A stretch of 64,000 nucleotides of DNA from Candidatus Acidiferrales bacterium (GTDB lineage: Bacteria; Bacteroidota; Ignavibacteria; Kryptoniales; JAKASW01): the NCBI GenBank assembly GCA_035515795.1, contig DATJAY010000035.1:284048-348047 (forward strand), given 5' to 3'. The notes under the pieces are model-generated. The model saw only the letters and a program-made list of their open reading frames with translations, searched no databases and was not told the origin of the DNA. Both the position numbers and the translations under genes were made by a program. Positions 5,469 through 23,844 of this stretch are shown piece by piece; position 1 is the first letter of the stretch, and the number at the start of each line of letters is the position of its first letter.

Positions 5469-6866
5469 ATGGAGACGGCAACTGATGTTAGGGGGACGTG
5501 GGAAGAATGCATGAAGCTCATTCACGGACAAGTAAACAATCTGAGTTACAAGACGTGGTTCGAACCGGTGATCCCCGTGGCACTGAAGGAGAAGAATCTG
5601 ATTCTGCGGGTTCCGAGCCAGTTCTTTCACGATTGGCTTGAAGAGCATTACGCTAGAGTCGTTTCTGAATCCGTGAGGACGGTGATTGGAGAAACCGCGA
5701 GGGTTGAGTATACAATTTCCGATGAGGATACAAGCGAGTCTGAGCCACAGTTTTATCGGCCATCAATGCCGAATCGTACAACCTTGCACGCGGAAAAAAT
5801 CGGCCCCCAAAAGGTAAACATCCGTGCCGCATTTGAAAGCAATCTCAATGCGCGTTACACATTTGAGAATTTTATCAAAGGAGACAGCAACCAGTTCGCG
5901 CGCGCTGCAGCTTATGCGGTTGCGAACAACCCTGCTGGGACCTCCTTTAATCCACTGGTAGTTTACGGGGGTGTTGGGCTCGGCAAAACCCATCTCATTC
6001 AGGCAATTGGAAATTTCGCGCAGCAATCCGGCAAAGCAGAACGTGTTCTCTATGTTTCAAGCGAACGATTCACGGTTGACTTCGTTGACGCGATTCAGAA
6101 AGACAAGGCAAACGAATTTTCTAACTTCTACCGCAGCATGGATATCCTCATTGTTGACGACATTCAGTTCTTTGCGGGAAAAGAAAAGACACAAGACACA
6201 TTCTTTCACACTTTCAATGCTCTCCATCAATCAGGGAAGCAGATCGTGTTATCCTCGGACAGACCGCCAAAGGAATTAAAAGGCGTTGATGACAGACTCG
6301 TCAGTAGATTCACGTGGGGATTAACCGTTGATATTCAACCCCCGGATCTGGAAACCAGGATCGCGATCCTGAGAAAGAAAAGTGAAGACGATGGCATCCA
6401 GATACCGGATGATGTTATCGAGTACGTGGCCGCAAATGTTACTTCAAACATCCGTGAACTTGAAGGTTGCTTGATCAGTATTCTGGCTAAGGCAAGCCTG
6501 AACAACCGCGAGATAAACGTTGAGTTGGGGAAGGAGGTCATTCGCAATCTCGCGGTTACAAGGAAAACCGCTGTTACCGTTGAAGATATTCAGAAAGTTG
6601 TTGCCTCCTTTTTCGATGTCAATGAAGAATCGCTTCGTGGGAAAACCAGAAAACAGGAGGTCGTAATTGCCCGCCAAACCGCAATGCACTTAACAAAGGA
6701 ACTAACACAACTGCCGCTTAAGACAATAGGAAGTCACTTCGGTGGCAGGGATCATTCAACCGTAATTTATGCGTGCCAGGTTATCTCAGACTATCTCTCG
6801 AATGACAAAAAATTCAGGGAGAAGTACGATAGGATCAAGAAGAAAATTGAGATGATCGGAATGTGA
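5469..6866 (+). CDS. dnaA: Chromosomal replication initiator protein DnaA
   Basis: DnaA (465 residues) binds DnaA boxes at oriC as an ATP-bound oligomer, melts the origin and recruits the helicase. Domain I (about 1-85) contains LSYKTWFEPVIPV. A short linker leads to the AAA+ core with Walker A (GGVGLGKTH), Walker B (ILIVDDIQFF) and sensor motifs. Domain IV ends with the DnaA-box-binding signature GGRDHSTVIYA. An in-frame TTG lies one codon upstream, but ATG at 5469 is better placed after AGGAGGGAG. Box-like sites on both sides of the gene suggest autoregulation, as in many bacteria; that is inference. Confidence 0.98.
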   Translation: METATDVRGTWEECMKLIHGQVNNLSYKTWFEPVIPVALKEKNLILRVPSQFFHDWLEEHYARVVSESVRTVIGETARVEYTISDEDTSESEPQFYRPSMPNRTTLHAEKIGPQKVNIRAAFESNLNARYTFENFIKGDSNQFARAAAYAVANNPAGTSFNPLVVYGGVGLGKTHLIQAIGNFAQQSGKAERVLYVSSERFTVDFVDAIQKDKANEFSNFYRSMDILIVDDIQFFAGKEKTQDTFFHTFNALHQSGKQIVLSSDRPPKELKGVDDRLVSRFTWGLTVDIQPPDLETRIAILRKKSEDDGIQIPDDVIEYVAANVTSNIRELEGCLISILAKASLNNREINVELGKEVIRNLAVTRKTAVTVEDIQKVVASFFDVNEESLRGKTRKQEVVIARQTAMHLTKELTQLPLKTIGSHFGGRDHSTVIYACQVISDYLSNDKKFREKYDRIKKKIEMIGM

Positions 6867-7267
6867 ATAACTTGTTTACTTGTATGTGAAGAAGTGCTCG
6901 ACCGATGTCAATATCTAATTCTTTTCCACAATGAAAAATACAAATAATCCTCGATGTTGACTACTTCTCGTTAATCAACATTCTATACTCACATCTTCTT
7001 TAAAACATCTCTCATGCTGTGATCCGTTAAATGACCGTCTTAATTGTAATTATAGTAAACTAATTTTCTTTTCAACATCCTAACACTCTTTATTCTTATT
7101 ATTCTTTTATATACATATAGATATATATTTATATTAATTGGGACTTTTCAACTGTCAGGTTGGATGACAGCATAACGGGTAAATTGAATTTTAGGCTCAA
7201 AAAGTGTAAATTTAAATAGAATTCGCAAGTTGCAATTGTCAATATTCTGTAAATAATGGAGGTGGAA
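6867..7267. other. dnaA-dnaN intergenic region with a DnaA box and AT-rich tract
   Basis: There is no gene in these 401 bases. A TTTTCCACA site lies at 6922-6930. It is followed at about 7040-7140 by a very AT-rich segment with alternating TA runs (TATATACATATAGATATATA). This could be a duplex-unwinding element or the second half of a bipartite origin. The region ends in the dnaN ribosome-binding site GGAGGTGG at 7258-7265. Confidence 0.55.
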
Positions 7268-8398
7268 ATGAAGTTCAAAGTAAATAGTAGAGAACTCCGA
7301 GATGCAATAGGGAAGATCATAGGTGTTGTACCGATTAGAACCACCATCCCTGCGATTGAAAATTTGCTTCTCGACGCGACCAAGAAAAAGCTTTCCATTT
7401 CCGCGACAGACCTTGAAATTTCAATGACAACTCAACTCGACATCGTGGACGGTGTTGACGGAAAGGTGACTGTAAACGCGAAAGAATTTTTCGACATTAT
7501 CCGCAATCTTGATGAATCGGAGATAGAAGTTTCCCTCGATGAAAATCTGAAGTTGTCCTTGAAAACGAAGTCGGGCTCCTACAGGTTTGCGTGCACGCCT
7601 GCGGAGGAATATCCGACGCTCCCTACAATCAGCGAAGGAGCAGAGACATCTTCGATTGCTACAGATATGTTGAGGAGCGTGATAGAAAAAACGATTTTTG
7701 CGGTATCCAAGGATGAACATCGTCGTTCAATGAACGGAGTGCTGTTTCTATTTTCTGGTAGGGGGGCAAAGATATACTCGACGGACGGGCACAGATTAGT
7801 TCGGATTGAGGACAAGGCACTTGTGGACAAACCACTGAAGAAAGAAGCGAACATTCAGGAGAAAGCACTTTCGCTGGCGGCAAAATGCTTCAGAGGAGCG
7901 AGCGTCGAGGTGACGATAGCGGATGAACACATCAAGCTAAAAGCAGGTGAGACAGAGCTGGTATCAAGGCTAATCAAGGAGCCTCACCCTGACTACGAGG
8001 CGGTCATACCCGGCGATATCGATAACAACAAGATAATGTCTGTCAGCAGGGGAGAGCTTCTCGAGAAAGTTAGACGGGTTGCGATACTTTCCGATTCCGT
8101 AAATCACCTCGTTAAGTTCACAATAGACAAAGACAACCTGACAATTTCTACGGAAGATACGGACAGAGGAGAAATGGGAGAAGAGCGGCTTCTAGTGCAA
8201 TGGAATGGTGGCGAGCAGATGAACATCGGGTTCAATTCTACTTATGTGACAGATGCGATGAACAGCATCGATGCGCAGAAAGTGAAATTTGCGTTTTCGA
8301 CATCGACGCGTGCCGCTACGATTAAGCCGATCTTGGAGAACGGAAAGGCTGGAGCGCAAGAGATGCTGGTTCTCGTAATGCCGTTGAGGTTGTCGTGA
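7268..8398 (+). CDS. dnaN: DNA polymerase III beta subunit (sliding clamp)
   Basis: This 376-residue clamp forms the homodimeric ring that tethers DNA polymerase III and other enzymes to DNA. Three repeated clamp folds span the chain. Typical segments are MKFKVNSRELRDAIGKI at the N-terminus, SSGTRAAT-like FSTSTRAATIKP near the end, and the C-terminal hydrophobic pocket strand ending VMPLRLS. An in-frame ATG exists four codons upstream, but it lies inside the GGAGGT ribosome-binding site, so ATG at 7268 is the start. recF follows after 22 bases. Confidence 0.97.
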   Translation: MKFKVNSRELRDAIGKIIGVVPIRTTIPAIENLLLDATKKKLSISATDLEISMTTQLDIVDGVDGKVTVNAKEFFDIIRNLDESEIEVSLDENLKLSLKTKSGSYRFACTPAEEYPTLPTISEGAETSSIATDMLRSVIEKTIFAVSKDEHRRSMNGVLFLFSGRGAKIYSTDGHRLVRIEDKALVDKPLKKEANIQEKALSLAAKCFRGASVEVTIADEHIKLKAGETELVSRLIKEPHPDYEAVIPGDIDNNKIMSVSRGELLEKVRRVAILSDSVNHLVKFTIDKDNLTISTEDTDRGEMGEERLLVQWNGGEQMNIGFNSTYVTDAMNSIDAQKVKFAFSTSTRAATIKPILENGKAGAQEMLVLVMPLRLS

Positions 8399-8420
8399 GG
8401 CTACCCAGGGGAGCCGATTA

Positions 8421-9554
8421 ATGCGAGTAAAGAGAATTCAGCTTTCAAATTTTAGAAACCATGTCGACTCATCGCTTGAATTCAGCCCGGGAGTAAACTT
8501 TATAACAGGCGCAAACGCACAGGGGAAAACGAGTATCCTCGAGGCGCTTTCATATGTCTGTCTTACGAAGAGTTTTCTGCACCAGGCAGATGCAGCAATA
8601 GTAAAAATTGGCAGCGATTCATTCGCTGTGGATGCTATCCTGGAGAATGAAAAGGGGTTCGTCAACAATGCCCGCGTGGTCTACTCGATCGATGCGGGCA
8701 AGAGGATCTTCATCGACGGCAACGAGATCAAGAAAAGTGCGGACGTGATCGGGATGTTTCCCATCGTGGTGCTGTCGCCGGGGGACTTCGCGCTGACCAC
8801 GGGCGCACCGAGCGAGCGGAGGATGTTTATGGACATGGTGCTCTCGCAGATATCACGTTCGTATCTGGAAGAATTGATAGAATACAGACGGGCGTTGAAG
8901 CAAAGAAATAAAATTCTTTTGGATGGCAAGTCGACGGGGTCGCTTGATACTGAGGTTATGATGGCCTGGACAGATGCACTGGTGTCCCACGGATCAAAAG
9001 TGATGATGAAAAGAACTGAATTTGTTGGTGAGTTTCAAGCGACGTTTTCGTCTGCCTATTCCACCTTGGTTGAATATGGCGAGGCGCCGGCGCTTAGGTA
9101 TACGCCGTCGTTTGGGCTAAACGAACGTGGGACGAACGTCTCGGAGTCATTTTATGCATCACTCAGTCACTTGGCTAAGATGGAACGGATCCGTGGAGCA
9201 ACCCTTTCTGGACCCCACCGCGACGATATCGCCTTTGTGTTGAACAATATGCCGATCCGTGAATTTGCGTCACAGGGTCAGCATAAGACCTTTCTCGTTG
9301 CGCTGAAGATTGCGGAGTTTCATTACATCAAGACAAAGCTAGCTGAAACGCCGGTTATGCTGTTGGACGACGTAATGACCGAGCTTGATTATTCGCGTGC
9401 GACAAAAACAATACAGGCTGTTTCTACTCTGGGTCAGGCATTCATAACCGCGACGGATATGATGAGTTTCGACGAAAATCTGATCGACATGAGAGAGACA
9501 AAATTCCACTTTGTCCGCGAAGGGAATATGGCTTATGACAACGTCCGACTTTAG
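8421..9554 (+). CDS. recF: DNA replication and repair protein RecF
   Basis: RecF (377 residues) is an SMC-like ATPase. With RecO and RecR it loads RecA at single-strand gaps and helps restart replication. Walker A (GANAQGKTSILEALSY) lies near the N-terminus. The signature region (LSGPHRDDI, then FASQGQHKTF) and Walker B (VMLLDDVMTELD) are in the C-terminal third. The first residues MRVKRIQLSNFRNH are typical. GGGGAG precedes the ATG. The 3' end overlaps the DUF721 gene by 20 bases. Confidence 0.97.
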   Translation: MRVKRIQLSNFRNHVDSSLEFSPGVNFITGANAQGKTSILEALSYVCLTKSFLHQADAAIVKIGSDSFAVDAILENEKGFVNNARVVYSIDAGKRIFIDGNEIKKSADVIGMFPIVVLSPGDFALTTGAPSERRMFMDMVLSQISRSYLEELIEYRRALKQRNKILLDGKSTGSLDTEVMMAWTDALVSHGSKVMMKRTEFVGEFQATFSSAYSTLVEYGEAPALRYTPSFGLNERGTNVSESFYASLSHLAKMERIRGATLSGPHRDDIAFVLNNMPIREFASQGQHKTFLVALKIAEFHYIKTKLAETPVMLLDDVMTELDYSRATKTIQAVSTLGQAFITATDMMSFDENLIDMRETKFHFVREGNMAYDNVRL

Positions 9555-9858
9555 ACAAGATGCCCACCATGGCAGCCATGATGCGAGGCGGGTAGGAGAT
9601 TTGATAAAAGAGTTCACGAGTCAGGATGGTATATCGGAGAAACTGCGGGCTTTCGAAGTCGTTGGTAACTGGGAGAAAATTGTCGGCGATATGATCGGGA
9701 AAAACACGGAGATCGTCCGAATTGAAAACGGCACGCTATACGTGCAGGCAAAAAACAGTGCATGGCGAAACGAACTGATCTTTGCGAAGGCGACAATATT
9801 GAAAAAGATAAGAGAGAACTATCCCGATTCTGGAGTTGAAAATGTATTTTTTATTTAG
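9535..9858 (+). CDS. DUF721 (DciA-like) protein
   Basis: A 107-residue protein of the DUF721 family, which commonly lies between recF and gyrB. The characteristic core is visible: VVGNWEKIVGD, then RIENGTLYVQAKNSAWRNEL. DciA proteins of this superfamily load the replicative helicase in bacteria that lack DnaC or DnaI; whether this short form does so is inference from family and position. An upstream in-frame ATG at 9511 exists, but the start at 9535 is closer to the usual length and overlaps recF by only 20 bases. gyrB follows after 12 bases. Confidence 0.88.
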   Translation: MTTSDFRQDAHHGSHDARRVGDLIKEFTSQDGISEKLRAFEVVGNWEKIVGDMIGKNTEIVRIENGTLYVQAKNSAWRNELIFAKATILKKIRENYPDSGVENVFFI

Positions 9859-9870
9859 ACGAGGTTGTTC

Positions 9871-11931
9871 ATGCTAAAGAAGGATGCGGCGACCAAGGCG
9901 AGATCGAAAAAGCCGAAGAGCAAAGGTAAGCCGCCAAAAGATAAAGATAGAGCAGAAGAAAGAGTTCACACGGATATAGCGAACAGAAAACCGGAAAAAG
10001 ACTTGGTGAACAAAGCGGAAAACGGCAGAGAGTACACGGCAGAAAGCATAACGGTCCTGAAAGGACTCGAAGCCGTCCGGAAACGTCCCGCTATGTATAT
10101 CGGCGATATCGGGCAGAGGGGATTGCACCATTTGGTTTATGAGGTGGTTGACAACTCCATAGACGAAGCGCTCGCAGGGTACTGCAAGAACATTAGCGTA
10201 ACCGTCAACAAAGACGGAAGCGTAACGGTTGAAGACGACGGCCGCGGCATTCCCACCGGCATCCATCCACAGGAAAAAAAGTCTGCACTCGAAGTAGTGA
10301 TGACGATGCTGCACGCGGGCGGAAAATTCGACAAATCGACGTATAAGGTTTCCGGCGGTCTGCACGGAGTCGGCGTTTCGGTTGTCAATGCGCTCTCGGA
10401 GGTTATGGAGACTAAGGTGTACCGCGAAGGAAAAATCTTCTATCAAAAATATAAGCGTGGCGAGCCCGTCGAGCCAGTGAAAGTTATCGGGAAAGATTCG
10501 AGGACCGGCACAACTCAGACTTTTGTCCCCGACAGGGAGATTTTCAAGAATCGCAACTACAAGTTCGAGACTATTGCAGAAAGGATGCGAGAGCTCGCTT
10601 TCCTGAACCCGGAAATTAAAATAAAACTTGTGGACAAGCGTGATGGGAACGAAGAAGAGTTTCACTACGAAGGCGGTATTACTGAATTCGTCCGTTACAT
10701 TGATGGTACAAGGAAAACGCTTACGAAAGAGCCGATTTTTATTTCCGGCGAGCGAGAAGGGGTAAGTGTTGAAATCGCGCTCGAATATTGCGACGATTAT
10801 AGAGAGAATCTATTTTCGTATGTCAACGATATTAATACGGTTGAAGGCGGCACACACGTCAGCGGATTTAGGAGCGCCCTTACCAGGACATTGAAATCTT
10901 ATGCCGACAAAAATAATCTGGTTAAGTCTGATAAGATTAACCTGACCGGCGACGACTTTAGAGAAGGATTGACGGTCGTTATCAGCACGAAGGTGCCGGA
11001 GCCGCAGTTTGAAGGCCAGACAAAGACGAAACTCGGCAACGGGGAAGTTGAAAGCATCGTCCAGACTATCGTGAACGATAAGCTGGGCGAGTACCTTGAA
11101 GGTAATCCGGGATCTGCAAAAAAAATCATTGAGAGAGCGGTAAACTCAGCCGAGGCGCGCGAGGCGGCTCGCAAGGCGCGCGATATTGTCCGCCGGAAAA
11201 ATGCGCTTGAATCGTCGAACCTGCCGGGCAAACTTGCCGACTGCTCCATCAACGATCCGGAACATTGCGAGATATTCATCGTCGAAGGAGACTCCGCGGG
11301 TGGTTCGGCCAAGCAAGGAAGAGACCGTCAGTTCCAGGCGATACTTCCGTTGAAGGGAAAAATTCTGAATGTTGAAAAGGCCAGGATGAACAAGATTCTT
11401 GAAAACGATGAGATCCGTGCGATCGTGCAGGCAATCGGCGCTGGTATCGGCGATGGGGAGGAGTTTGATGCCTCGAAAGCCCGGTATGGAAAGATCATCC
11501 TGATGGCAGATGCCGACGTAGACGGAAGCCACATTAGAACTCTCCTTCTCACTTTTTTCTTCCGGTACATGAAGGAGCTTGTCGAGCTCGGAAAAGTTTA
11601 CATAGCACAGCCGCCGTTATATAAAGTCAAGAAGGGAAAAGCCGAGGAGTATGCGTACAGCGAGGATGAGAGAGACGACCTGATCAAGAAAATAAAAAAG
11701 GGGGATGAAGGCGAGGTCGTTGTCTCGAGATTCAAAGGTCTCGGCGAGATGAATCCGGAACAACTCTGGGACACCACGATGGATCCGGCGAAAAGAACGC
11801 TGCTTCAAGTCAGCATCGAAAATGCAGCGGAAGCGGACAGAACGTTTTCGATTTTGATGGGCGAAGAAGTCGAGCCGCGCAAGAACTTCATCGAGAAAAA
11901 TGCAAAGTATGTCCGGAACCTTGACGTTTAG
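9871..11931 (+). CDS. gyrB: DNA gyrase subunit B
   Basis: GyrB (686 residues) is the ATPase subunit of gyrase and drives negative supercoiling with GyrA. The GHKL ATPase domain shows VVDNSIDEAL, DDGRGIP and the GLHGVG motif. The transducer, TOPRIM domain (EGDSAGGSAKQG, later DADVDGSHIRTLLLTFFFR) and C-terminal tail (RFKGLGEMNPEQLWDTTMDP) follow. The start is ATG 9871, after GAGG at 9861-9864; a TTG two codons earlier is less likely. About 50 residues before the ATPase domain are highly basic and low-complexity (KSKGKPPKDKDRAEERV), longer than usual. The 3' end overlaps the next gene. Confidence 0.97.
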   Translation: MLKKDAATKARSKKPKSKGKPPKDKDRAEERVHTDIANRKPEKDLVNKAENGREYTAESITVLKGLEAVRKRPAMYIGDIGQRGLHHLVYEVVDNSIDEALAGYCKNISVTVNKDGSVTVEDDGRGIPTGIHPQEKKSALEVVMTMLHAGGKFDKSTYKVSGGLHGVGVSVVNALSEVMETKVYREGKIFYQKYKRGEPVEPVKVIGKDSRTGTTQTFVPDREIFKNRNYKFETIAERMRELAFLNPEIKIKLVDKRDGNEEEFHYEGGITEFVRYIDGTRKTLTKEPIFISGEREGVSVEIALEYCDDYRENLFSYVNDINTVEGGTHVSGFRSALTRTLKSYADKNNLVKSDKINLTGDDFREGLTVVISTKVPEPQFEGQTKTKLGNGEVESIVQTIVNDKLGEYLEGNPGSAKKIIERAVNSAEAREAARKARDIVRRKNALESSNLPGKLADCSINDPEHCEIFIVEGDSAGGSAKQGRDRQFQAILPLKGKILNVEKARMNKILENDEIRAIVQAIGAGIGDGEEFDASKARYGKIILMADADVDGSHIRTLLLTFFFRYMKELVELGKVYIAQPPLYKVKKGKAEEYAYSEDERDDLIKKIKKGDEGEVVVSRFKGLGEMNPEQLWDTTMDPAKRTLLQVSIENAAEADRTFSILMGEEVEPRKNFIEKNAKYVRNLDV

Positions 11932-12577
11932 AGATATTTCCACAGTTATCGTAAACTATCGTACGCCGGACCTTCTTGAAACTTCGGCGAGATCATTCAG
12001 GAAATTTTATCCGGATGTCGAATTGGTCATTGTGGACAACGGATCAAACGATCAGTCGGTTGAAGTAATTGAATCGTTTGTCAGATCTAATCCGTCAAGC
12101 ACAAAGTCGATCATGCTGGAACAAAATTATTTCCATGGTCCGGCGATGGATAGAGCAGCAAGATCAATTGAAAAGGAAATCGTTTTCTTCCTGGACACCG
12201 ATACGGAAACCAGGCGCGGCGGGTTCGTTGAGCTAATGTTGGACGAGTTCAATCAGAATGAAAAGGTGTATGGTGTGGGGAAGCTCGACAAGGTCAATAA
12301 AAGAGGCTTCGCCGCAGAAGATGGGACAATAACAGTTTTACTCTCACCATATATGATGTTGCGGCGAAAAGTGTATTTCGATCTTCCGCCTTTCAGGCAC
12401 CACGGCATGCCGACGCTCGAAAATTTTTCTGCGGCGGAATCCATGGGATACTTGCTTCGGAATTTCGATATTTCCGATTACATTGAGCACTACGGGAGAG
12501 GGACGGCGTCGAAGTTTGGTTACAGCCTCGGATTCCGCGGAAAACTGGATTTCCTGTTGAATAAGGTGGGACTTTGA
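11900..12577 (+). CDS. Family 2 glycosyltransferase, small
   Basis: A 225-residue GT-A fold glycosyltransferase. The N-terminal strand and donor-binding region read TVIVNYRTPDLLETS and VIVDNGSNDQS. The acidic metal-binding motif is in FFLDTDTETRRGGF. The protein lacks membrane helices and a long acceptor domain, so it is a compact cytosolic transferase whose sugar donor and acceptor cannot be told from sequence. The start is uncertain: ATG at 11900 or 11909, both inside the 3' end of gyrB and neither with a clear ribosome-binding site. This suggests translation coupled to gyrB. It may act on surface polysaccharide or a glycoprotein; no sugar-biosynthesis genes are adjacent. Confidence 0.85.
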   Translation: MQSMSGTLTFRDISTVIVNYRTPDLLETSARSFRKFYPDVELVIVDNGSNDQSVEVIESFVRSNPSSTKSIMLEQNYFHGPAMDRAARSIEKEIVFFLDTDTETRRGGFVELMLDEFNQNEKVYGVGKLDKVNKRGFAAEDGTITVLLSPYMMLRRKVYFDLPPFRHHGMPTLENFSAAESMGYLLRNFDISDYIEHYGRGTASKFGYSLGFRGKLDFLLNKVGL

Positions 12578-12626
12578 CGCCTATGGCTAGACCGATGGAA
12601 GTATCGATGCGTGGAGAGGCTTTTCA

Positions 12627-13565
12627 ATGGTGATCTTGTCATCCTCGCAGAATAGTCGGATACATTTGCTGTTGGTCCGAATGTCATTTTTCATTGCAGG
12701 GGTTAGCTCTCTCGCCATGGCACAGGAGAACCGATACCCGATTTTGGAGAACGGACGGTACGGATTCATCGATTCGGCCGGAAATATCATTGTACAACCG
12801 ACTCTTGAGAGAGTACCACAGTTTTCGGAGGGACTAGCTCTGACTGAAGAGGATGTATTTCTATTAGGACCAAGATGGGGTTTCATGGACACGTCGGGAC
12901 ACGAAGTGATCTCTCATGATTATCCGAAAGCCGGTGATTTCCATTGTGGTAGAGCATGGGTGCTCAAGCATTCCTTTTTCCTTCCGTTCCTCAGCTCCGA
13001 TAAGTATGGGTACATTGGCAGAGCTGGACATGTCGTCATAGATTTCAAGTACGACGTTGCAGGGGATTTTGCTGAGGGGCTTGCAAATGTTTCGCTGGAA
13101 GGAAGGTGCGGTTATCTGGACACGGCTGGCAATGTGGTTATTCCACTGCAATATGAGAGGGCAAGAGCTTTTTCCTGCGGCCTTGCGCCTGTAAAACAAA
13201 ATGGGAAGTGGGGTTATATAAATTCAAGGGGCGAAGAGAGAATACCAGAGCGATTCGATGATGCAAGAAGTTTTTTCGACGGACGGGCTCTGGTAAGGGA
13301 AGACAGCGTTTGGAGGTTTATTACCAAAGACGGTGCCAACGCGTTTCAATTAGAGTTTGAAAATGCCCTTTGGTACACGGAAGGATTAGTTGCGGTGAAG
13401 GTCGGTGAGTTTTGGGGCTATGCGGACACCGCAGGCACCATGGTCATCAAACCGAGATTTGCAAGTGCCGCTCCTTTTTTTAAAGGCCTTGCTGAGGTCA
13501 AAACTCTTTATGAACACGGGTACATCAACCATGATGGGAATTTTATCTGGCGAGAACAGAACTAA
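12627..13565 (+). CDS. Exported WG-repeat protein
   Basis: A 312-residue protein with an N-terminal signal peptide ending near SSLAMAQ and seven full WG (KWG) repeats plus a partial one. Examples are RYGFIDSAGNIIVQP, KYGYIGRAGHVVID, RCGYLDTAGNVVIP, KWGYINSRGEERIP and FWGYADTAGTMVIKP. Each unit is about 33-38 residues and ends in a GLA-type turn. WG repeats form beta-rich scaffolds; no enzymatic residues are seen and the role is unknown. It has no T9SS sorting domain, so it probably stays periplasmic. It lies between a glycosyltransferase and gyrA, interrupting a gyrB-gyrA pair. GAGAGG precedes the start. Confidence 0.9.
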   Translation: MVILSSSQNSRIHLLLVRMSFFIAGVSSLAMAQENRYPILENGRYGFIDSAGNIIVQPTLERVPQFSEGLALTEEDVFLLGPRWGFMDTSGHEVISHDYPKAGDFHCGRAWVLKHSFFLPFLSSDKYGYIGRAGHVVIDFKYDVAGDFAEGLANVSLEGRCGYLDTAGNVVIPLQYERARAFSCGLAPVKQNGKWGYINSRGEERIPERFDDARSFFDGRALVREDSVWRFITKDGANAFQLEFENALWYTEGLVAVKVGEFWGYADTAGTMVIKPRFASAAPFFKGLAEVKTLYEHGYINHDGNFIWREQN

Positions 13566-13597
13566 GTGCAGATTGCCTGAATAGTTAGGATTATAAA

Positions 13598-16081
13598 ATG
13601 TCATTAAATGAGAAATTAGTTCCAGTCGACATAGAGGACGAGATAAAGGGTTCGTACATAGACTACGCAATGTCGGTCATCGTGGCCCGTGCGCTACCCG
13701 ACGTACGCGATGGACTCAAACCGGCACACAGGAGAGTCCTTTTCGGAATGTCGGAGCTCGGTCTCGATTACAACAAGCCGTACAAAAAATGCGCGAGAAT
13801 AGTCGGCGAGGTTCTCGGTAAATATCATCCGCATGGAGATGTCGCGGTTTATGACACACTCGTCAGGATGGCGCAAGACTTTTCGATGCGCTACCCGCTC
13901 GTCGACGGACAGGGCAACTTCGGCTCGATAGACGGAGACTCGCCCGCGGCAATGCGTTATACCGAAGCGAGACTCTCGAGAATTGCAGGAGAAATGCTCC
14001 GCGATCTCGAGAAGAACACCGTCGACTTTGCACCTAACTTCGATGAATCACTCAAAGAGCCCCTTGTCCTTCCGTCGCTCCTTCCGAATCTTCTTCTCAA
14101 CGGCGCAAGCGGAATTGCGGTCGGTATGGCAACGAACATCCCGCCGCACAATCTCTCCGACACCGTCGATGCAATTATTGCTTTGATAAAGGATAAGGAC
14201 ATTGCCATTGATAAGCTGATCAAAATCATAAAGGCGCCTGATTTTCCGACCGGCGGAATAATTTTCGGCTACGAGGGAGTCAAGGAAGCATACAAGACCG
14301 GACGCGGCAGAATCATCCTGCGTGCAAAAGCAAACATCGAGACCCAGAAAAGCGGAAGAGTAAACATCGTCATAACGGAAGTTCCTTATCAAGTCAACAA
14401 AGCGAATCTTATCGAGAAGATCGCTGACCTCGTGAGAGAGAAGAAAATTGAAGATATCTCTGATATCAGAGATGAATCGGACAGGGACGGAATTAGGGTA
14501 GTGATCGAGCTAAAACGCGACTCGGAGCCGCAAGTTGTTCTCAACAATCTCTACAAGCATACGCAGATGCAGACGACCTTCGGCGTGATAATGCTTTCCC
14601 TTGTCGCCGGCGTGCCGAAGGTACTTGATCTGAAGCAGATGATGGAATACTTCGTCGAGCACAGGCATGAGGTCGTTGTCCGTAGAACGAAGTTCGATCT
14701 GGATGCAGCAGAGAAGCGCGCGCATATTCTCGAGGGTTATAAAATAGCTCTCGATAACATTGACGAGGTGGTACAGCTTATAAAGAAATCGAAGGACCCA
14801 GAATCAGCGAAGACGGCTTTGATGAAGAGATTCAAACTCAGCGAAATTCAGGCAAAAGCTATTCTTGCTCTGACGCTGCAGAGGCTCACAGGACTGGAAA
14901 GAAAGAAGATCGAAGATGAATACCGCGAGACGATAAAGCTTATCGAAAAACTGAAGGCAATACTCGCCAGCAAAGCAATGCGGATGGAAATAATTCGCGA
15001 TGAATTGATCGATCTCAAAAAGAATTATGGCGACGAGCGCCGGACGGAGATTATTGAAAAGGCATCTGAATTCAGCATCGAAGATATGATAGCTGAGGAG
15101 GATGTCGTCATTACGATCACGCACAATGGTTTCATCAAGCGGTATCCCGTCAGCGGTTACAGGCGCCAAAGCCGCGGCGGAAAAGGAGTCACGGCGCAGT
15201 CGACGCGCGAAGACGATTTCGTCGAACACATGTTTATTGCTTCTACACACCAGTACATACTTTTCTTCACAGATAAGGGGAGAGCTTACTGGCTGAAGGT
15301 GCATGAAGTTCCCGAGGGCGGTCGAGCATCGCGCGGAAGGTCCATCATCAACCTGATCGGGAAAATGCCGGATGAGCAAATCACGGCGTTCCTTCCGGTC
15401 AAAGACTTTGAAGAAGATATGTTTGTCACCATGGTGACAAAGCGCGGAACAGTAAAGAGAGTCGCGCTGAAGGAATTCTCGAATCCGCGGAAAGTCGGCA
15501 TCATCGCGATCGGCCTTGATAGAGGCGACAGGCTTATTGATGCGTGGCTCACGGATGGAAAGCAAGACGTAATCATCGGAAGCAAGAATGGGCTTGCTTT
15601 AAGATTTAACGAGAGGGATGTCCGCGAGATGGGACGTAATGCACGCGGCGTCAGAGGCATGAAGATTGCAAAAGGCGACGAAGTAATCGGCATGATTGTA
15701 ATCAGCAGGCCCGGAGCAAGCGTGCTCGTTGTTACCGACAGAGGTTTTGGAAAACGGAGCGAGGTTGGAGAATACTCTCCGCGCCGCCGTGGAGGTAAAG
15801 GACTCATCACCGTTAAGACCGGCGACAAGAATGGCAAACTGCTTTCGATAAAGGAAGTGATCGACAACGATGACATAATGATCGTGACGTCGAAAGGTTT
15901 CTTGATTCGTCAGCATGTGAAAGAGATCAAGCTCGCTGGAAGAAACACGATGGGCGTTCGCCTTATAAAGATCCAGCCGAGCGACAGTATTGCCGCTGTT
16001 GCAAGAGTTCTTGCTGAAGAAGGCGAAGAGGAAAGCGGTAACGGTAGGAACGGTAAAGAGCAAGCGGATTTGTTCGAGTAG
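13598..16081 (+). CDS. gyrA: DNA gyrase subunit A
   Basis: GyrA (827 residues) is the DNA-breaking and wrapping subunit of gyrase. The N-terminal breakage-reunion domain starts [20 protein letters not shown] and contains the catalytic tyrosine in [11 protein letters not shown]. The C-terminal beta-pinwheel carries a GyrA-box-like element (QSRGGKG) and a second RRRGGKG, which favours GyrA over ParC. In the quinolone-determining region the sequence is [15 protein letters not shown]: valine (residue 82) replaces the serine at E. coli position 83, while the Asp87 equivalent is retained. A strong terminator follows. Confidence 0.97.
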
Positions 16082-16858: not shown

Positions 16859-18160
16859 GTGAAGACACGGTTTGTTCTCAAGTTGGTTTTATCATCCATC
16901 TTAATGCTTTGTGCCGGTGAAGCATTCGCGCAATGGTCTGCAATCTCGGAGTTGCAGTATGTGCGCATATCCGGCATTCTCGTTATAAACGACAGTACTA
17001 TCTTTATAGGTGGGTTCAACGGCGCATTTCTTCGATCAACAGACCGCGGGAACACCTGGTCGCGCGTCATACCGACCGGAATGGGAACCGATTCAATCTT
17101 TTCTCTAAACAAGTGCGGTGGATATCTTTTTGCCGGTACGAACGCTCCGGTCAGCCTTTATCGATCTTCTGACAACGGGAATTCATGGAGCGCAGCCGGG
17201 CAAGGATTACCCCCAAATACAAATGTCAACGGCATGACATATTTGAACGGGGTGACTTATGCAGCGACAACCAATGGTGTCCTGGGCTCTACGGACAATG
17301 GCACGTCGTGGACCGCCGACACCTTGGGATTAAACTTGGGACCGCCGCCGTTTCCTCCCGAGTATATGAACTACGGTACTGTCGGAATTACCTCTGCCGG
17401 ATCGAATCTTTACGTTATCGAGGCCCTCAATGGGAAAGGTGCATATCGGACTTCGGCGGACAGTATATCCTGGACGCCGATCGGATTAGACTCGGTTTCA
17501 GAATCCGCGATAACATCCCTGGATACTAACGTCTTTGTGGCCACGACACGTGGAATATTCCTTTATAGTGGAGGTACCGCGTGGCTGGACAGAAGTGTTG
17601 GGCTTCCCTTTTCCGATTCAGCGAGCATTACGCTGTGTAGTTTCGCCACATCAGACACTCTATTATTTGCTTATATCGAAGTAAGTTCATCGACCTTTTA
17701 CGGCCATGAGATTTACGTGACGCATGATTTAGGCAAAACATGGATCGATGTCAACGACAGTGCCTTTGCGGGAAGTTCCGTTACCGCCATGGTTGCAACC
17801 CCAAAGTACCTTTTTGTCGGCACGCAAAGTGGTGCATGGCAGATACCAATCTCAGATGTGATCACCTCTGTGAATGAAAACCTTCCTCCGGTGCCTTCCA
17901 AATATGTTTTATATCAAAACTATCCCAATCCATTCAACCCATCGACGGTCATCGGTTATCGCTTGCCAGCAGCCAGCCATGTCACGTTGAAAGTCTATGA
18001 CGTGATGGGTCGCGAAGTAAAGACATTGGTGAATGAGCGGCAGTCCGCGGGTAGTCACTCTGCCAGATTTGATGCTGGCAGTCTGCCGAGTGGTCTGTAC
18101 TTCTACAGAATTCAAGCGGGCAATTATTCTTCGACAAAGAAGGCACTGTTGGTGAAATAA
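16859..18160 (+). CDS. Secreted beta-propeller protein with T9SS sorting domain
   Basis: A 433-residue protein starting at GTG 16859 just after a GGGGAGGGGG ribosome-binding site. A signal peptide (to about GEAFAQ) precedes repeated BNR/Ycf48-like propeller blades marked by FLRSTDRGNTWSRV, LYRSSDNGNSWSA and VLGSTDNGTSWTAD. The last 85 residues are a type A Por sorting domain: QNYPNPFNPSTVIGYRLP, KVYDVMGREVKTLVNE, then GLYFYRIQAGNYSSTKKALL. Such proteins cross the outer membrane by the type IX system and are processed at the surface. No catalytic Asp/Arg set of a true sialidase is evident, so binding or structure is more likely than hydrolysis. It ends 227 bases from the convergent RiPP cluster. 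Confidence 0.92.
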   Translation: MKTRFVLKLVLSSILMLCAGEAFAQWSAISELQYVRISGILVINDSTIFIGGFNGAFLRSTDRGNTWSRVIPTGMGTDSIFSLNKCGGYLFAGTNAPVSLYRSSDNGNSWSAAGQGLPPNTNVNGMTYLNGVTYAATTNGVLGSTDNGTSWTADTLGLNLGPPPFPPEYMNYGTVGITSAGSNLYVIEALNGKGAYRTSADSISWTPIGLDSVSESAITSLDTNVFVATTRGIFLYSGGTAWLDRSVGLPFSDSASITLCSFATSDTLLFAYIEVSSSTFYGHEIYVTHDLGKTWIDVNDSAFAGSSVTAMVATPKYLFVGTQSGAWQIPISDVITSVNENLPPVPSKYVLYQNYPNPFNPSTVIGYRLPAASHVTLKVYDVMGREVKTLVNERQSAGSHSARFDAGSLPSGLYFYRIQAGNYSSTKKALLVK

Positions 18161-18387: not shown

Positions 18388-19920
18388 TCATTCTTTCTCG
18401 AGATAAATCTCGCAAGATTCAAAGTTGATTTCCCATCTGTATCCAGGGCGGTTCTCCCACGAATAGTTTTTGCGCATGCCGTCCCACCAATTCTGGTAAC
18501 GGACCGAAACGTCTCCCATGTCAGCTACTATTCGTTCGTATAACGAACTTTCATCAAGTGCAGTTTTGCTAAGGTTGCTAAGTGATTTGAATAATTCGGT
18601 GAGGCCGTTTTTTCGTTCGAAAAGTGCTCGTATCTCATCTCGTTCGGCGGGAGTCACTTTTCCAACTATTTTTTTCGTCGGCGTACCGGTAGAGTTCGGC
18701 TCAGGTTCGAGATTCGAATTTCCGTTATTTTTATTCGTGACCATTAATGGTTCGGCTCCTTTCTTCAATATTCCCAAAATCTCTTTCTGCGTATCAAGTA
18801 CCATCTTTAAGACTTCTAGAACCGACATTTCGGCAAACCCTGTTTTCATAGGGGTAAATGTTCGGTCTGTCTCCTCGATTACAACGAATTCAGATTGTAG
18901 ACCTTCGTTCATTTTGATGGGTATCGGATTTGGATAAATAGTCCCCGCGTGTGGCTCCTTAAAGCGATGCAGAACGGCTAAGGGATCCTCGTAATCTATC
19001 GACGATACATCGTTCACGGTTGCAAAAGCCGGGATGTCTCTTAGAATGCCGAGAAGCTTTCCGGTTGCCGTTCGCTCTTTGTGAGAAGCGACGCACTGTT
19101 GATTCGAAGGGGTGTTGACCTCGTACGTCAGTTTCTTGTTGAGATATATACAACGCAGGCATTGATATGCATCGCATTGTTTGCAAATCGGCGCGTGATC
19201 AAGGCGAAGAAGTTCAGAATTTGGAATATGTATTCCCTTTCCAAGGCTGCCCACAGAATCCTCGGGATTGTCATAGAGAAATCCAGCACAGAGATACAAC
19301 CGGCCATCTGAGCCCACGGTGAGATGCTCGATACCAGCTTCGCAGTTCTTCATCTTGTTCAGAATCAGTCTGTCTGAAAGGAAGTTTAACTCAAAAATTT
19401 TTCCGTGACGATAATAATCTGACACCCTGTCTGCAATATTCAATAATTGTTGATCATAGAGGTTCAGATCAGCTTCGGTAGTTCTCTCCATCCCTACAAT
19501 GCGTAAATTTAGTCGCTGGAAGACCCCCGATAAGCCGAATAAAATATCCTCTAATCGCGCAATCGATTCTATTGGCAAACGAACTATCACATTTCGTCCG
19601 GCATCAAGTCCGAAATCTGCGGCATGATCTATTTCGTCGGATTCAATGACTACGATGCCTTCGGGATATTTCTTGGCAAGCGCCAGAGGGACGATCTTTA
19701 CATGATTCACGCTTTCAATGATGGATCTGTGTTGAGGCGGGGGGGCTGACTTTCCGTAGACAAACTGGACCGTCAAACCGTTGCTGCGGGCGAAATCTAT
19801 CGTGGTCTGCACAGTTGCTTTAGGAATCGGCTCAGGGCTTGATGAGAGGTTTGGGTTGGTATAAAAGCAAAATGAAATGGATGATTTGTCGACTGGGAGA
19901 ATTAGGAATCTCACTGTCAA
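18388..19920 (-). CDS. CXXX-repeat peptide maturase fused to CXXX modification-system protein
   Basis: A 510-residue protein I read as two families joined. Residues 1-350 resemble the CXXX repeat peptide maturase: a TIM-barrel-like region without the radical SAM CX3CX2C, then a SPASM-like cysteine set (Cys193, 211, 246, 249, 254, 257, 276). Residues about 395-417 are a Asn/Pro/Thr-rich linker. Residues 418-510 (VGKVTPAERDEIRALFERKN to WEINFESCEIYL) match my memory of the small CXXX repeat peptide modification system protein, usually a separate gene. The start is TTG 19920, overlapping the radical SAM gene's stop by four bases (TTGA). It probably binds an auxiliary Fe-S cluster and assists peptide modification. 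Family assignment is from motif recognition, not a search. Confidence 0.82.
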   Translation of the reverse strand: MTVRFLILPVDKSSISFCFYTNPNLSSSPEPIPKATVQTTIDFARSNGLTVQFVYGKSAPPPQHRSIIESVNHVKIVPLALAKKYPEGIVVIESDEIDHAADFGLDAGRNVIVRLPIESIARLEDILFGLSGVFQRLNLRIVGMERTTEADLNLYDQQLLNIADRVSDYYRHGKIFELNFLSDRLILNKMKNCEAGIEHLTVGSDGRLYLCAGFLYDNPEDSVGSLGKGIHIPNSELLRLDHAPICKQCDAYQCLRCIYLNKKLTYEVNTPSNQQCVASHKERTATGKLLGILRDIPAFATVNDVSSIDYEDPLAVLHRFKEPHAGTIYPNPIPIKMNEGLQSEFVVIEETDRTFTPMKTGFAEMSVLEVLKMVLDTQKEILGILKKGAEPLMVTNKNNGNSNLEPEPNSTGTPTKKIVGKVTPAERDEIRALFERKNGLTELFKSLSNLSKTALDESSLYERIVADMGDVSVRYQNWWDGMRKNYSWENRPGYRWEINFESCEIYLEKE

Positions 19921-21116
19921 CGCAAATCAATTTGTTTGATATTTGCGGAGCGATCTTGTCCACCCGAAATTTTTCTGAATCGTTCCCAGTAATAATTATT
20001 TGCACGCACTCTCGCCTTGTGCATCTTACAAATGAACACTGCCCGCTGATAGATCGTATCTGAATCCGCTTCATCGTAGTTTAGCCCTTGACACCACGCA
20101 CAACCCCTTGCAACCTCGCACTTGATGCATTCCTCCGAGCTCTGGCTCACCCTGTCAAGAGCAAGAAAGGGGCGAAGCTTATTTTGATCAATGCCTTCGA
20201 AACAATTTCCAATGCAGCGAGGCTTTTGTTTGGCCATGGAATACGGAGCAAACCTGATGCAGGGGTAGAAATCTCCTTTATAATCCACTGCGAGCATTTT
20301 GCCTGCCCCGCACCAATTCTGGTTGTCGCGTACACAATCTAATGGCTGACCGATCGAATCCGAAAAGAAAGTTGCGTTGGCTTTCGTGAAGAGTCTTTGC
20401 AAGAGCACATAGTCCGCGAGCTTGACTAATTGTTCTTCCAAGATCATGTCATCTCCTTCCTGCCAAACATTTTCGAATACGACATTGATGTATACGCTCT
20501 TGATCCCAAGGTCCCAAAGATGAAGAACGCTCTCGAAAATAAACGGCAGGTCGGCGTGGGAGACGGTGACTTTACTGCCCGATCCCGGAAACTGGGAGAG
20601 CCAAAGAGGAACGTTCCGTACCACGTCGGCGTATGAACCCCTCCCGTTCGGATACACTCTTTGCATATCGTGTTTGGGTTGGGAACCATCGATTGTAATC
20701 CCGATACTGAGATGCGTTTTATTCTTCTCAATATACTTTTGGACCTTCGGGTGGTCGTACAGTATGCCGTTGGTGGAGAAACTGAATCGATAACTGTTGA
20801 ACCAGGGGTGAGATTCCTCATACATGCGGCGCTTGATATAGTCGCTGACCTGATCGATTAACTCAATTTCGAGGAAGGGTTCTCCGCCGATGAAATCCCA
20901 GATCACGGATTGTTCGGTGAATATTTGCCGCTCGCGAAGAAGATACTCAACGGTCTGACGGGCGATATCGAAACTCATCCTGTTTTGGTGATTCTTTCCG
21001 TGGAGATAACAGTAACGGCATCTGAGCTGGCAGTCTTCGGTCACAATAAGCGTGACGTTCTTGGCCACCGCTTCGCCCCACGTCTTCGGATTCTTGCCAA
21101 AAATGTAATCCATCAT
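19917..21116 (-). CDS. Radical SAM/SPASM peptide maturase, CXXX-repeat type
   Basis: A 399-residue radical SAM enzyme. Cys29, Cys33 and Cys36 (CQLRCRYCYLHG) would hold the [4Fe-4S] cluster that cleaves S-adenosylmethionine. FIGGEPFLE is the glycine-rich SAM-binding motif, and FSFSTNG and IGITIDGS mark later barrel strands. The C-terminal third is a SPASM domain with about ten cysteines (CVRDNQNWCGAGK, FYPCIRFAP, CIKCEVARGCAWC), as in enzymes that cross-link Cys residues of peptides. It lies 73 bases downstream of the CXXX precursor and overlaps the second maturase, so its substrate is almost certainly that precursor. The chemistry, perhaps thioether formation, is inference. Confidence 0.93.
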   Translation of the reverse strand: MMDYIFGKNPKTWGEAVAKNVTLIVTEDCQLRCRYCYLHGKNHQNRMSFDIARQTVEYLLRERQIFTEQSVIWDFIGGEPFLEIELIDQVSDYIKRRMYEESHPWFNSYRFSFSTNGILYDHPKVQKYIEKNKTHLSIGITIDGSQPKHDMQRVYPNGRGSYADVVRNVPLWLSQFPGSGSKVTVSHADLPFIFESVLHLWDLGIKSVYINVVFENVWQEGDDMILEEQLVKLADYVLLQRLFTKANATFFSDSIGQPLDCVRDNQNWCGAGKMLAVDYKGDFYPCIRFAPYSMAKQKPRCIGNCFEGIDQNKLRPFLALDRVSQSSEECIKCEVARGCAWCQGLNYDEADSDTIYQRAVFICKMHKARVRANNYYWERFRKISGGQDRSANIKQIDLR

Positions 21117-21189
21117 AAATCGAATTCTTCAACGACGACCCGATCAAAAATGGTCTGAAAAAAAACGAATACAAGCGACGTTAGCACAT

Positions 21190-21882
21190 TCAATAACTTG
21201 CAAGCACGCAGCCGGCTGTGCATGTGTATGTGCAGTCAGACGCGCCGCAGCCACCCGAGCAGCCGCTTCCGCAAGACATACTACATGCATTCTTACAACC
21301 ACCCGAGCAAGTGCTGCTGCACCCGACCGCACAACCTCTGCTGCACGTAGACCCGCAAGCGTACGCACAACCCGATACGCACCCACCCTCGCAAGTATCA
21401 TAGCAACCTGTTGTACAATATTGGGAACAACTGCCGGTACAGCTGCCAGTACAGGTACTTCTACAACTGCCAGTACAGTTGCCAGTACAGGTGGTGGAAC
21501 ACGTGCCCGTACAACCGCCAGTACAAGTAGTGGAACAACCACCAGTACAGGTGGTGGAACAACCACCAGTACAGGTATTGTTACAACTGCCGGTACAGGT
21601 CCCGGTACAGGTAGTGGAACAACTGCCCGTGCACGTATTTTTGCATGCCCCAGTACAATCATTCGCACAAGTTGCCTTGCATGCCCCCGTGCAGGTTGTG
21701 GAGCATCCGGTTGTACATGAAGAGGCGCAATCGGCACAAGTGCTTACCGGATTATTTTTTTTGCATGAATCAACTAGAAAGGAAAGACCGAGCACAGCAA
21801 TGCCTGGAAGCACGGTGCCGACAGTGGTGATAAATCGGCGTCGGTCGAGAGTTGAAGATTCGGTACTTTCTTCTGAAGACAT
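21190..21882 (-). CDS. CXXX-repeat RiPP precursor with Tat-like leader
   Basis: A 230-residue protein. ATG 21882 follows AAAAGGAGG with a 9-base spacer; an upstream ATG at 21918 has no such site. Residues 1-40 form a Tat-like export leader: acidic Ser/Glu-rich start, DRRRFITTVG twin-arginine motif and a hydrophobic stretch ending FLVDSC, which could be a lipobox. After a KKNNPVST spacer the rest is Cys at every fourth residue: 41 consecutive cysteines (residues 52-212) without one slip, then one CX4C and two more CX3C steps, ending VLASY. Intervening triplets are mostly TGG, STT, TGS and NNT. With the adjacent radical SAM and maturase genes this is the substrate of a RiPP pathway rather than a metallothionein. 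Confidence 0.92.
   Translation of the reverse strand: MSSEESTESSTLDRRRFITTVGTVLPGIAVLGLSFLVDSCKKNNPVSTCADCASSCTTGCSTTCTGACKATCANDCTGACKNTCTGSCSTTCTGTCTGSCNNTCTGGCSTTCTGGCSTTCTGGCTGTCSTTCTGNCTGSCRSTCTGSCTGSCSQYCTTGCYDTCEGGCVSGCAYACGSTCSRGCAVGCSSTCSGGCKNACSMSCGSGCSGGCGASDCTYTCTAGCVLASY
21247..21729 (-). repeat. Coding minisatellite (12/24-base periods) of the CXXX tract
   Basis: The 41-cysteine tract is built on a 12-base codon period. It is most regular at about 21430-21640, where 24-base units containing CCAGTACAGGTGGTGGAACA recur nearly unchanged. The GGTGGT...ACCACC arms within units are inverted repeats able to fold back. Toward both ends the triplets diverge while the cysteine codons stay, so selection holds the Cys spacing. 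Confidence 0.85.
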
Positions 21883-22164: not shown

Positions 22165-23844
22165 ATGTTCCATTTTACGGGGAAAACTATGTACCTGGTT
22201 TTTTTTCTGACGATGTTCATATGCATACCTTGCGTGAATGCACAGCTCAAAGCAAGATATGCCGGTGTTACTTTCAGATTGTTGGGAACGGTGGGCTATA
22301 ACACGGTCCGGATCAAGAGGGACCCCACCTCCGGGAATTTATATGTCCTTCAAAATAACGGCATCATCCAGCGTGTCAACTTCAATTCAGACACCACCGC
22401 AGCAACCCTTACCACGGTTTATCAAACATCGAATCATCATCTCAACGCACCGCTGGGAATGACATTTGGAAGCGACGGGACGATGTATCTGGTTGGAAAC
22501 GACTCGACTACCGTTCTCGGAACGGCGAGCATAGTGAAAGGTATTCCGGTTTCGCCCGGTAGCGAGAATCGGACCTGGAGCATGATTGCGACAACCGTGC
22601 CGTACCCCTACGGCAATGTCTATAACCACAGGATGAGCGGAATTGTTTTGAATCCGACCGGAGATTCCATTTATGTTAATAGTGGAGCGGCCACGGATCA
22701 TGGTGAAGTCGAGAACGGAGGTTACCGCGAATCGGGGTTGACTTCGATAGTATTGAGGCTTCCTATCGACGGAGACAATATCGTACTTCAGAACGACAGA
22801 GACTGGCTCCGATCCAACGGATATCTCTTGTGTGAGGGAATCAGAAATACCTTCGACCTTGCGTATGCAGGCAACGGCGATCTGTTTGGCGTTGAGAATT
22901 CCGGCGACCGCGACGATCCCGAAGAGTTGAACTGGATCAGAGCAGGACATCATTACGGATTTCCCTGGCGGATAAGTACCGACCTTACTCCACAGCAGTT
23001 TACACCTTATGATCCGCACACCGATCCACTGTTAAGTCCCAATGCGTGGGGAGGTGGAAATCTATATAAGACTTTTAGCAACGATACGGCTTATCCGCAA
23101 GCCCCCGACAGTATTACTTTCACCTATCCGATTCCGAGCTACGGGCCCGATGCGGATCACTTTCGCGATACGACGACAGGACAGGTGGAGGATGCGAGCC
23201 AGCTTGGCAAGAAGATATATACATTTACCCCTCATCGGTCGCCGGACGGTATCGTTTTCGATAGAGACTCGTTGCTCGCAGGGAATCTGCAAGGAGGCGG
23301 CTTGGTGATATGTCTTGAGAACTCTGCTCTCATCACAGCACTCGGAGACACGAGTCAGGATTTGCTTCTCGTCGAATTGACAAAAGACAGCGGCAACTAT
23401 TCCGCACACGTGATAAGGCTGGTATCAGGCTTCCTCTCACCTCTTGGTGAGGAACTTGTCGGGAACAAATTGTTTGTCGTCGAAACAGGTTTGAACTACA
23501 ACAACAATTCCCCTAGACTATGGGAAATAACTTTACCTCTGGCGAGTACGACGGCGGTTCGCAAGACCCACAATGCGCAAGAATCTTTTGAGCTGGATCA
23601 GAATTATCCGAATCCATTCAATCCTTCAACCGTGATAAAGTATCAGCTTCCACAAACCAGTTATGTTAGTCTTAAAGTCTACGATGTGCTTGGGAGAGAG
23701 AGGGAGACGTTGGTTAATGCTCGAGAAACCGCAGGAACACATTCGGTCGCATTCAACGCGGCCACCCTGCCGAGTGGAGTTTATTTCTACAAGTTGCAGG
23801 CTGGAGATTACTCATCCGTAAAGAAAGCGATATTGATGAAATAG
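22165..23844 (+). CDS. Secreted sugar-dehydrogenase-like beta-propeller with T9SS sorting domain
   Basis: A 559-residue protein with a signal peptide ending near PCVNAQ. A six-bladed propeller of the soluble PQQ glucose/sorbosone dehydrogenase type runs to about residue 465. Its diagnostic stretch is GIRNTFDLAYAGNGDLFGVE, then DDPEELNWIRAGHHYGFPW. A His in NHRMSG and several Asp/Arg residues are compatible with PQQ binding but were not mapped on a structure. The last 85 residues are a type A sorting domain (QNYPNPFNPSTVIKYQLP, KVYDVLGRERETLVNA, GVYFYKLQAGDYSSVKKAIL). It is divergent from the CXXX cluster. PQQ-dependent oxidation at the cell surface is possible; a structural role is not excluded. 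Confidence 0.9.
   Translation: MFHFTGKTMYLVFFLTMFICIPCVNAQLKARYAGVTFRLLGTVGYNTVRIKRDPTSGNLYVLQNNGIIQRVNFNSDTTAATLTTVYQTSNHHLNAPLGMTFGSDGTMYLVGNDSTTVLGTASIVKGIPVSPGSENRTWSMIATTVPYPYGNVYNHRMSGIVLNPTGDSIYVNSGAATDHGEVENGGYRESGLTSIVLRLPIDGDNIVLQNDRDWLRSNGYLLCEGIRNTFDLAYAGNGDLFGVENSGDRDDPEELNWIRAGHHYGFPWRISTDLTPQQFTPYDPHTDPLLSPNAWGGGNLYKTFSNDTAYPQAPDSITFTYPIPSYGPDADHFRDTTTGQVEDASQLGKKIYTFTPHRSPDGIVFDRDSLLAGNLQGGGLVICLENSALITALGDTSQDLLLVELTKDSGNYSAHVIRLVSGFLSPLGEELVGNKLFVVETGLNYNNNSPRLWEITLPLASTTAVRKTHNAQESFELDQNYPNPFNPSTVIKYQLPQTSYVSLKVYDVLGRERETLVNARETAGTHSVAFNAATLPSGVYFYKLQAGDYSSVKKAILMK

Follow-up and report, generated by a model that had tools for sequence, protein, structure and literature searches.

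The closest described relatives of the system reported here are the CXXX-repeat radical S-adenosylmethionine (SAM) systems, which are catalogued by curated family models (TIGR04114/TIGR04117, TIGR04115, TIGR04119, and TIGR04116) but have no biochemistry in the open literature searched. In fact, searching that literature for TIGR04114-04119, CXXX repeat peptides, and pseudo-radical-SAM partners gave nothing relevant. We analyzed a stretch of 64,000 nucleotides (the window; contig DATJAY010000035.1 of assembly GCA_035515795.1, positions 284,048 to 348,047) from a genome named Candidatus Acidiferrales bacterium and placed by GTDB in the Ignavibacteria of the Bacteroidota, which carries such a locus. 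As in the catalogued system, all components are adjacent and score above the cut-offs of their models. The locus is a genuine and complete member of the family, apparently uncharacterised, and has a variant architecture: its TIGR04119 maturase is fused to TIGR04116, its target has an uninterrupted array of 41 Cys, the longest among the sampled loci, and the target begins with a twin-arginine (RR) signal of the twin-arginine translocation (Tat) type that includes a lipobox-like site. The most useful results are the pseudo-radical-SAM identity of the maturase and the alternation, among relatives, between Tat-type targets and ATP-binding cassette (ABC) exporters.

Several known systems offer partial parallels. 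CteB, the maturase of the SCIFF peptide (5wgg/5why), is the nearest solved structure to the radical SAM enzyme of the window and the best fold match of its pseudo-radical-SAM protein; it differs in being a single enzyme with a short precursor, and it retains its SAM cluster. The PapB/PapA system (freyrasin; NF047865) is alike in its SPASM radical SAM enzyme and its Cys-rich repeated CX3 units; however, PapA units are of the form CX3D/E (PMC9413430), whereas the window target lacks a fixed Asp or Glu acceptor and has a signal peptide, the window enzyme scores 200.4 bits against an NF047865 cut-off of 340, and the system has an extra pseudo-radical-SAM partner. In QhpC, thioethers are formed by the radical SAM enzyme QhpD in the cytoplasm and the protein is exported afterward through an ABC transporter (PMC7876137), the order that we propose for the window target; unlike the window system, QhpD/QhpC has the ABC transporter QhpF, Cys-to-Asp/Glu links, one radical SAM enzyme, and a leader protease. 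Bufferins and DAG-RiPPs (RiPPs being ribosomally synthesized and post-translationally modified peptides) also have Cys-bearing precursors: for precursors with Sec signals modified by multinuclear non-heme iron-dependent oxidative (MNIO) enzymes, the signal peptide has been suggested as the enzyme recognition element (PMC12452194), and one 2025 preprint describes hybrids of RiPP and lipoprotein (PMC12636315). Their chemistry is MNIO and not radical SAM, and Tat signals are mentioned in neither of these two papers.

The features of the locus, all on the minus strand, are as follows.

18388..19914, minus strand: CXXX maturase, a pseudo-radical-SAM/SPASM protein fused to TIGR04116 (gene 3; the likely GTG start gives 508 aa, TTG 19920 gives 510 aa)
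18400..18666, minus strand: TIGR04116-like domain at the C-terminus of gene 3 (NCBIfam match; residues 419-507 when counted in the 510-aa frame)
19917..21116, minus strand: radical SAM/SPASM enzyme, 399 aa (gene 2; TIGR04115 match, alignment, CteB similarity)
21190..21882, minus strand: CXXX-repeat target protein (precursor), 230 aa (gene 1; TIGR04117 and TIGR04114 matches, 41 in-register Cys)
21247..21729, minus strand: uninterrupted CXXX array, Cys52 to Cys212, 41 Cys (sequence and codon analysis)
21763..21882, minus strand: predicted Tat signal peptide/leader, residues 1-40, with RRRFI, LPGIAV, and the lipobox-like LVDSC ending in Cys40 (sequence, relatives, TatC)

A preliminary description of this DNA, made from the letters alone, had proposed three adjacent minus-strand genes for a protein with 41 in-register Cys, a radical SAM/SPASM enzyme, and a SPASM-bearing maturase; its coordinates, reading frames, and Cys count were right, and in the search of the three proteins that it suggested every part passes its curated NCBIfam cut-off. 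Gene 2 matches TIGR04115 over the whole model (596.7 bits, cut-off 350), gene 3 matches TIGR04119 through residues 111-317 (224.3 bits, cut-off 150) and TIGR04116 through its C-terminal domain (86.8 bits, cut-off 50), and the target scores 64.4 bits with TIGR04117 and 21.5 bits with TIGR04114, whose cut-offs are 50 and 20. In Pfam, gene 2 matched Radical_SAM and Fer4_12 only, and genes 1 and 3 matched nothing. The four-base overlap described for the last two genes holds if gene 3 starts at TTG 19920 and becomes a gap of two bases if it starts at GTG 19914, at the position of which the sister genome, the other carrier in the genus, has an ATG. The same description missed the TIGR04116 fusion, the pseudo-radical-SAM nature of the maturase, the twin-arginine/lipoprotein N-terminus, and the patchy occurrence of the cassette. 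It further suggested that the Cys array may carry a very long series of cross-links, possibly as a rigid rod.

The radical SAM enzyme has the motif C29x3C33x2C36 and seven SPASM Cys (269, 286, 330, 333, 339, 342, and 363), all invariant in 38 sequences. After TIGR04115, its best NCBIfam families are thioether or RiPP maturases, namely PapB, CcpM, the SCIFF maturase (122 bits), and the quinohemoprotein amine dehydrogenase maturase (112 bits), and by sequence its nearest solved structure is 5wgg (E 2.5e-28). It is encoded at the single TIGR04115 locus above cut-off in the genome.

The maturase encoded by gene 3 is, by profile comparison and structure modelling, a degenerate paralogue of this enzyme, with a radical SAM/SPASM fold that has lost the Cys of the SAM cluster and kept those of the SPASM domain. 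A profile of 31 maturases aligned by hhalign with that of the 38 radical SAM enzymes at E 1.5e-8 over 239 columns, through the N-terminal half and the SPASM region, and placed the nearly invariant FC16xY of the maturases on the third Cys (YC36Y) of the CX3CX2C motif of the enzymes. The CX3CX2C motif itself was absent from the 31-sequence alignment of maturases, in which the seven SPASM Cys (C191, C209, C244, C247, C252, C255, and C274) are invariant (31/31). An AlphaFold2 model built from a 54-row alignment reached a pLDDT of 75.8 (46.6 with a 5-sequence alignment), with values above 90 for the greater part of residues 1-180 and also of the C-terminal domain; it is unreliable at residues 269-361 and 386-409, and MAFFT misplaced the other maturases past about residue 270. 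The model matched CteB (5why/5wgg) with Z 16.5 and a root-mean-square deviation of 3.8 over 254 residues, followed by PqqE (Z 13.4), TigE (Z 12.8), and then anSME and SuiB, whereas the rows covering residues 416-493, in the TIGR04116 domain, reached Z ~6 and are uninformative about its fold. Because the SAM-cluster motif is missing, the SPASM Cys are kept, and the fold is CteB-like, the gene 3 protein should not cleave SAM; two auxiliary [4Fe-4S] clusters are to be expected in it. The auxiliary clusters of PapB serve as the return path of electrons, and one of them binds the thiolate of the substrate Cys (PMC10470005); by analogy the gene 3 protein may act likewise.

Gene fusions in relatives link all three parts. 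The radical SAM enzyme and the maturase form one chain of ~730 aa in 16 of 38 loci, from Planctomycetes and a Clostridia-Peptoniphilaceae group, and since they are fused in these lineages, the pair probably works as a single complex; in the unfused loci their genes are adjacent or near neighbours. The fusion of maturase and TIGR04116 was found only in the window and the sister genome among the sampled loci, while TIGR04116 is a gene of its own, of ~90 aa, in 30 other loci. TIGR04116 is missing from all loci of a Chlorobi/Delta group, and a search of whole genomes confirmed its absence in 5/5 genomes of this group; the domain is thus dispensable for the system.

The target has 46 Cys in 230 aa, of which the 41 in the array follow each other at a spacing of exactly four residues. 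Its core holds 41 CxxxC pairs, against 10.1 +/- 2.4 in 20,000 shuffles with a maximum of 20, and a strong Shine-Dalgarno sequence (aaaggaggt) precedes its ATG at 21882. In all 42 units the Cys codon has the same first and second base, whereas the third is C in 17 and T in 25; since 39 of the 42 twelve-base units are also distinct, selection acts on the Cys pattern in the protein. We considered a simple tandem repeat of the DNA as the source of the pattern and rejected it: the periodicity at 12, 24, and 36 bp is weak, the copies are only ~70% alike, and nearly all units differ. The longest Cys run at the other sampled loci has at most 24 Cys, and the sister target has 36 Cys in total, with the pattern kept despite the change in array length. 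No further CXXX target was found in the genome by pattern search, whose other hits were an unrelated peptide of the CxC type and a single match put down to chance, and no convincing transcription terminator or attenuator was seen 3' of the target gene. Five loci from Acidobacteria, Alphaproteobacteria, and Flavobacteriia (L044, L045, L050, L056, and L075) have a single enzyme set flanked by several different CXXX targets, between two and four per locus, whose cores contain 7 to 24 Cys.

The N-terminus of the target reads MSSEESTESSTLDRRRFITTVGTVLPGIAVLGLSFLVDSC40KKNNP, that is, a twin-arginine motif ahead of a hydrophobic stretch (DRRRFITT...LPGIAVLGLSFLVDSC), and the genome encodes a TatC (218.6 bits). 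Over 34 relatives, such a target and an operonic ABC exporter exclude each other (Fisher p 5e-10, a value that ignores relatedness): none of the 19 loci with an RRxF(L/I/M)-type target has an operonic exporter, whereas all 15 loci with signal-less, mostly short precursors have one downstream in the same direction. Distant or opposite-strand ABC genes at L053 and L064 were scored as unrelated, and PF00664 and PF00005 were both present in the exporters of all six loci tested. At the window locus no ABC exporter lies within 7.5 kb. TatC was found in 18 of the 19 genomes with RR-type targets (in that of L061 just as a fragment where a contig ends). Among the Bacillota, 9 of 10 genomes with ABC-type targets have no TatC or a match below cut-off, and the Chlorobi/Delta genomes with such targets do have TatC. 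Well-supported branches of the tree force at least two switches between the two arrangements. Of 32 RR-type signals, 27 have a motif (I/L/V)Px(I/L/F)(A/G)(V/F) within their hydrophobic part. The signal-less leaders of the Chlorobi/Delta group also retain this motif (5/5), those of Bacillota do not; from this distribution we read it as an element likely recognised by the enzymes and at the same time a part of the Tat signal.

We therefore propose, with a probability of roughly two in three, that the locus is a CXXX-repeat radical SAM system modifying an exported, probably lipid-anchored target. The target, the radical SAM enzyme, and the pseudo-radical-SAM maturase would be made from three adjacent same-strand genes, presumably as an operon, and the two proteins that are fused in other lineages would form a complex in the reducing cytoplasm. 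The complex would recognise the leader through the segment of the above motif within the Tat signal; the radical SAM enzyme would generate the 5'-deoxyadenosyl radical while the thiolates of the core Cys are held at auxiliary clusters in one or both of the SPASM domains, and Cys-centred bonds, most likely intramolecular thioethers like those of PapB, CteB, and QhpD, would be set along the array. The modified protein would then leave via Tat, be cleaved at the lipobox, and be anchored through Cys40. Tat exports folded proteins (see also PMC10924467), and this fits a target that would be cross-linked before export, as QhpC is. No Tat-exported RiPP is described in the open literature searched, and RiPP precursors with signal peptides are unusual. 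If the proposal is true, CXXX systems become testable chemistry, in which the partner enzyme should receive two auxiliary Fe-S clusters from a degenerate radical SAM paralogue and the substrate would be exported already modified, via Tat or alternatively an ABC exporter. With its 41 repeats, the target would also be exceptionally long for a substrate that is processively cross-linked by radical chemistry. A bolder version, which we regard as possible and rather doubtful, is that the active enzyme and its partner lacking the SAM cluster processively knot the 41-Cys array into a rigid polythioether, that Tat is used since the knotted protein cannot pass Sec, and that the result is a lipid-anchored, covalently cross-linked rod on the cell envelope, which would make it a hybrid of RiPP and lipoprotein that leaves through Tat.

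Several observations weigh against the proposal. Against the consensus used, [LVI][ASTVI][GAS]C, the lipobox of the window target is imperfect, with Asp at -2 (V-D-S-C40); the corresponding sites are I-D-S-C in the sister and V-T-G-C in L046 of the Fibrobacteres, and these three are the only targets with a clear site at the end of the hydrophobic region, most related RR targets having no predicted lipidation. The lineages behind the exclusion between Tat and ABC types are not independent, and two switches are few; moreover, TatC was not detectable in the Chlorobiota metagenome-assembled genome (MAG) of L057, which has an RR-type target. The leader motif was derived from, and counted in, a single set of sequences. 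Finally, across 580 CXXX units we found no conserved non-Cys residue and no fixed acceptor: in RR-type targets (475 units) X2 is Gly in 45%, and X1 and X3 are a mixture of S/T/G/E/K, mostly small or polar and none fixed, while in ABC-type targets (72 units) the X residues differ again, the Anaerococcus-type cores being quite unlike those of the RR type.

As only Cys is constant, a strict PapB-like Cys-X3-Asp rule is disfavoured, and relaxed-acceptor thioethers to neighbouring carbons, sactionines, or Cys-Cys links could be formed instead. The complex and the export route could in fact be as proposed and the modification be another one, a sactionine (Cys to C-alpha), Cys-to-Cys bonds, or a change of Cys that is not a cross-link; this is a minor though serious possibility, favoured by the wide variation of the X residues between lineages around a sole invariant residue and by a SPASM fold that, in the nearest matches, is common to enzymes with many different products, whereas formers of thioethers are among the nearest characterised families (PapB at 200 bits, the maturases of SCIFF and of quinohemoprotein amine dehydrogenase at 122 and 112). 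With 46 Cys per 230 residues, the target might rather be an exported metal binder resembling metallothionein, for which the enzymes would install a metal or Fe-S site or see to its maturation, and make no covalent links. Tat also serves metal-loaded proteins, and bufferins are Cys-rich RiPPs with a signal peptide that bind copper (PMC12452194). We consider this explanation improbable: all ten cluster Cys of the radical SAM enzyme are invariant, the enzyme falls within families of peptide maturases, and the neighbourhoods have no recurrent gene for metal transport or sensing. The modified product could nonetheless bind metal.

In the Bacillota and Chlorobi/Delta relatives, precursors of 56-128 aa next to an ABC exporter have the apparent layout of an ordinary secreted bioactive RiPP, a bacteriocin or signalling peptide released from the cell after removal of its leader; for the window, with its long, RR-type target with a lipobox-like site and no such exporter within 7.5 kb, the same product is quite improbable. 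That the cassette is decayed or inactive, in a region after gyrA that varies within the genus, seems to us hardly credible. It is carried by only 2 of 13 genomes of the genus and absent downstream of gyrA from eight others; however, the catalytic Cys are all intact, the enzymes are 82-85% and 64% identical to those of the sister, and the array has shifted in length (36 vs 46 Cys) with its pattern preserved.

The genome of the window is represented by 39 contigs of 4.08 Mb in total (100% complete) and shares its phylum with Chlorobiaceae genomes. The radical SAM enzyme scored above cut-off in 5 of 395 genomes of the phylum, and within the genus TIGR04116 was found in 2 of 13, so the cassette is patchy. 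Scanning one genome per species more widely gave 36 true loci in about ten phyla (Spirochaetota, Bacillota, Pseudomonadota, Acidobacteriota, Fibrobacterota, Planctomycetota, Thermodesulfobacteriota, Chlorobiota, Bacteroidota, and Myxococcota), and the co-occurrence of the parts that the preliminary description expected in other genomes was thus borne out. The tree of the radical SAM enzyme is discordant with the phyla, the window enzyme pairing with that of a Spirochaetales MAG (98/98 support), and it is therefore likely that the cassette spread by horizontal transfer. In both carrier genomes of the genus it lies downstream of gyrA. By eye, positions 2338-16081 of the window resemble an origin region, with yidC, rnpA, dnaA, dnaN, recF, gyrB, and gyrA in this order and the cassette ~12-15 kb from dnaA.

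The system had also been described as sitting between two cargo genes of the type IX secretion system (T9SS). Type A sorting domains were confirmed in the flanking genes at 16859-18160 and 22165-23844, both on the plus strand; at the sister locus (L033) none of these flanking genes is found, and we therefore treat the link as incidental. The post-gyrA region is rich in T9SS genes in other genomes of the genus. It is variable across the genus (L113-L120), with different T9SS-sorted proteins in several genomes, and the CXXX cassette is one insert. Another candidate RiPP locus was noticed in this genome, beyond the window (L097:5723-7394, minus strand; G000:C3:189722-191393). It encodes a peptide of 73 aa that ends in ...HACQCNCTCTCTCTCPCMCTCTCLNTR, with Cys at every second position, and a radical SAM/SPASM enzyme whose best NCBIfam match is TIGR03962 (195 bits, below the cut-off of 265); its neighbours are a small PqqD-like protein and an adjoining LanL/Ser-Thr-kinase-like gene.

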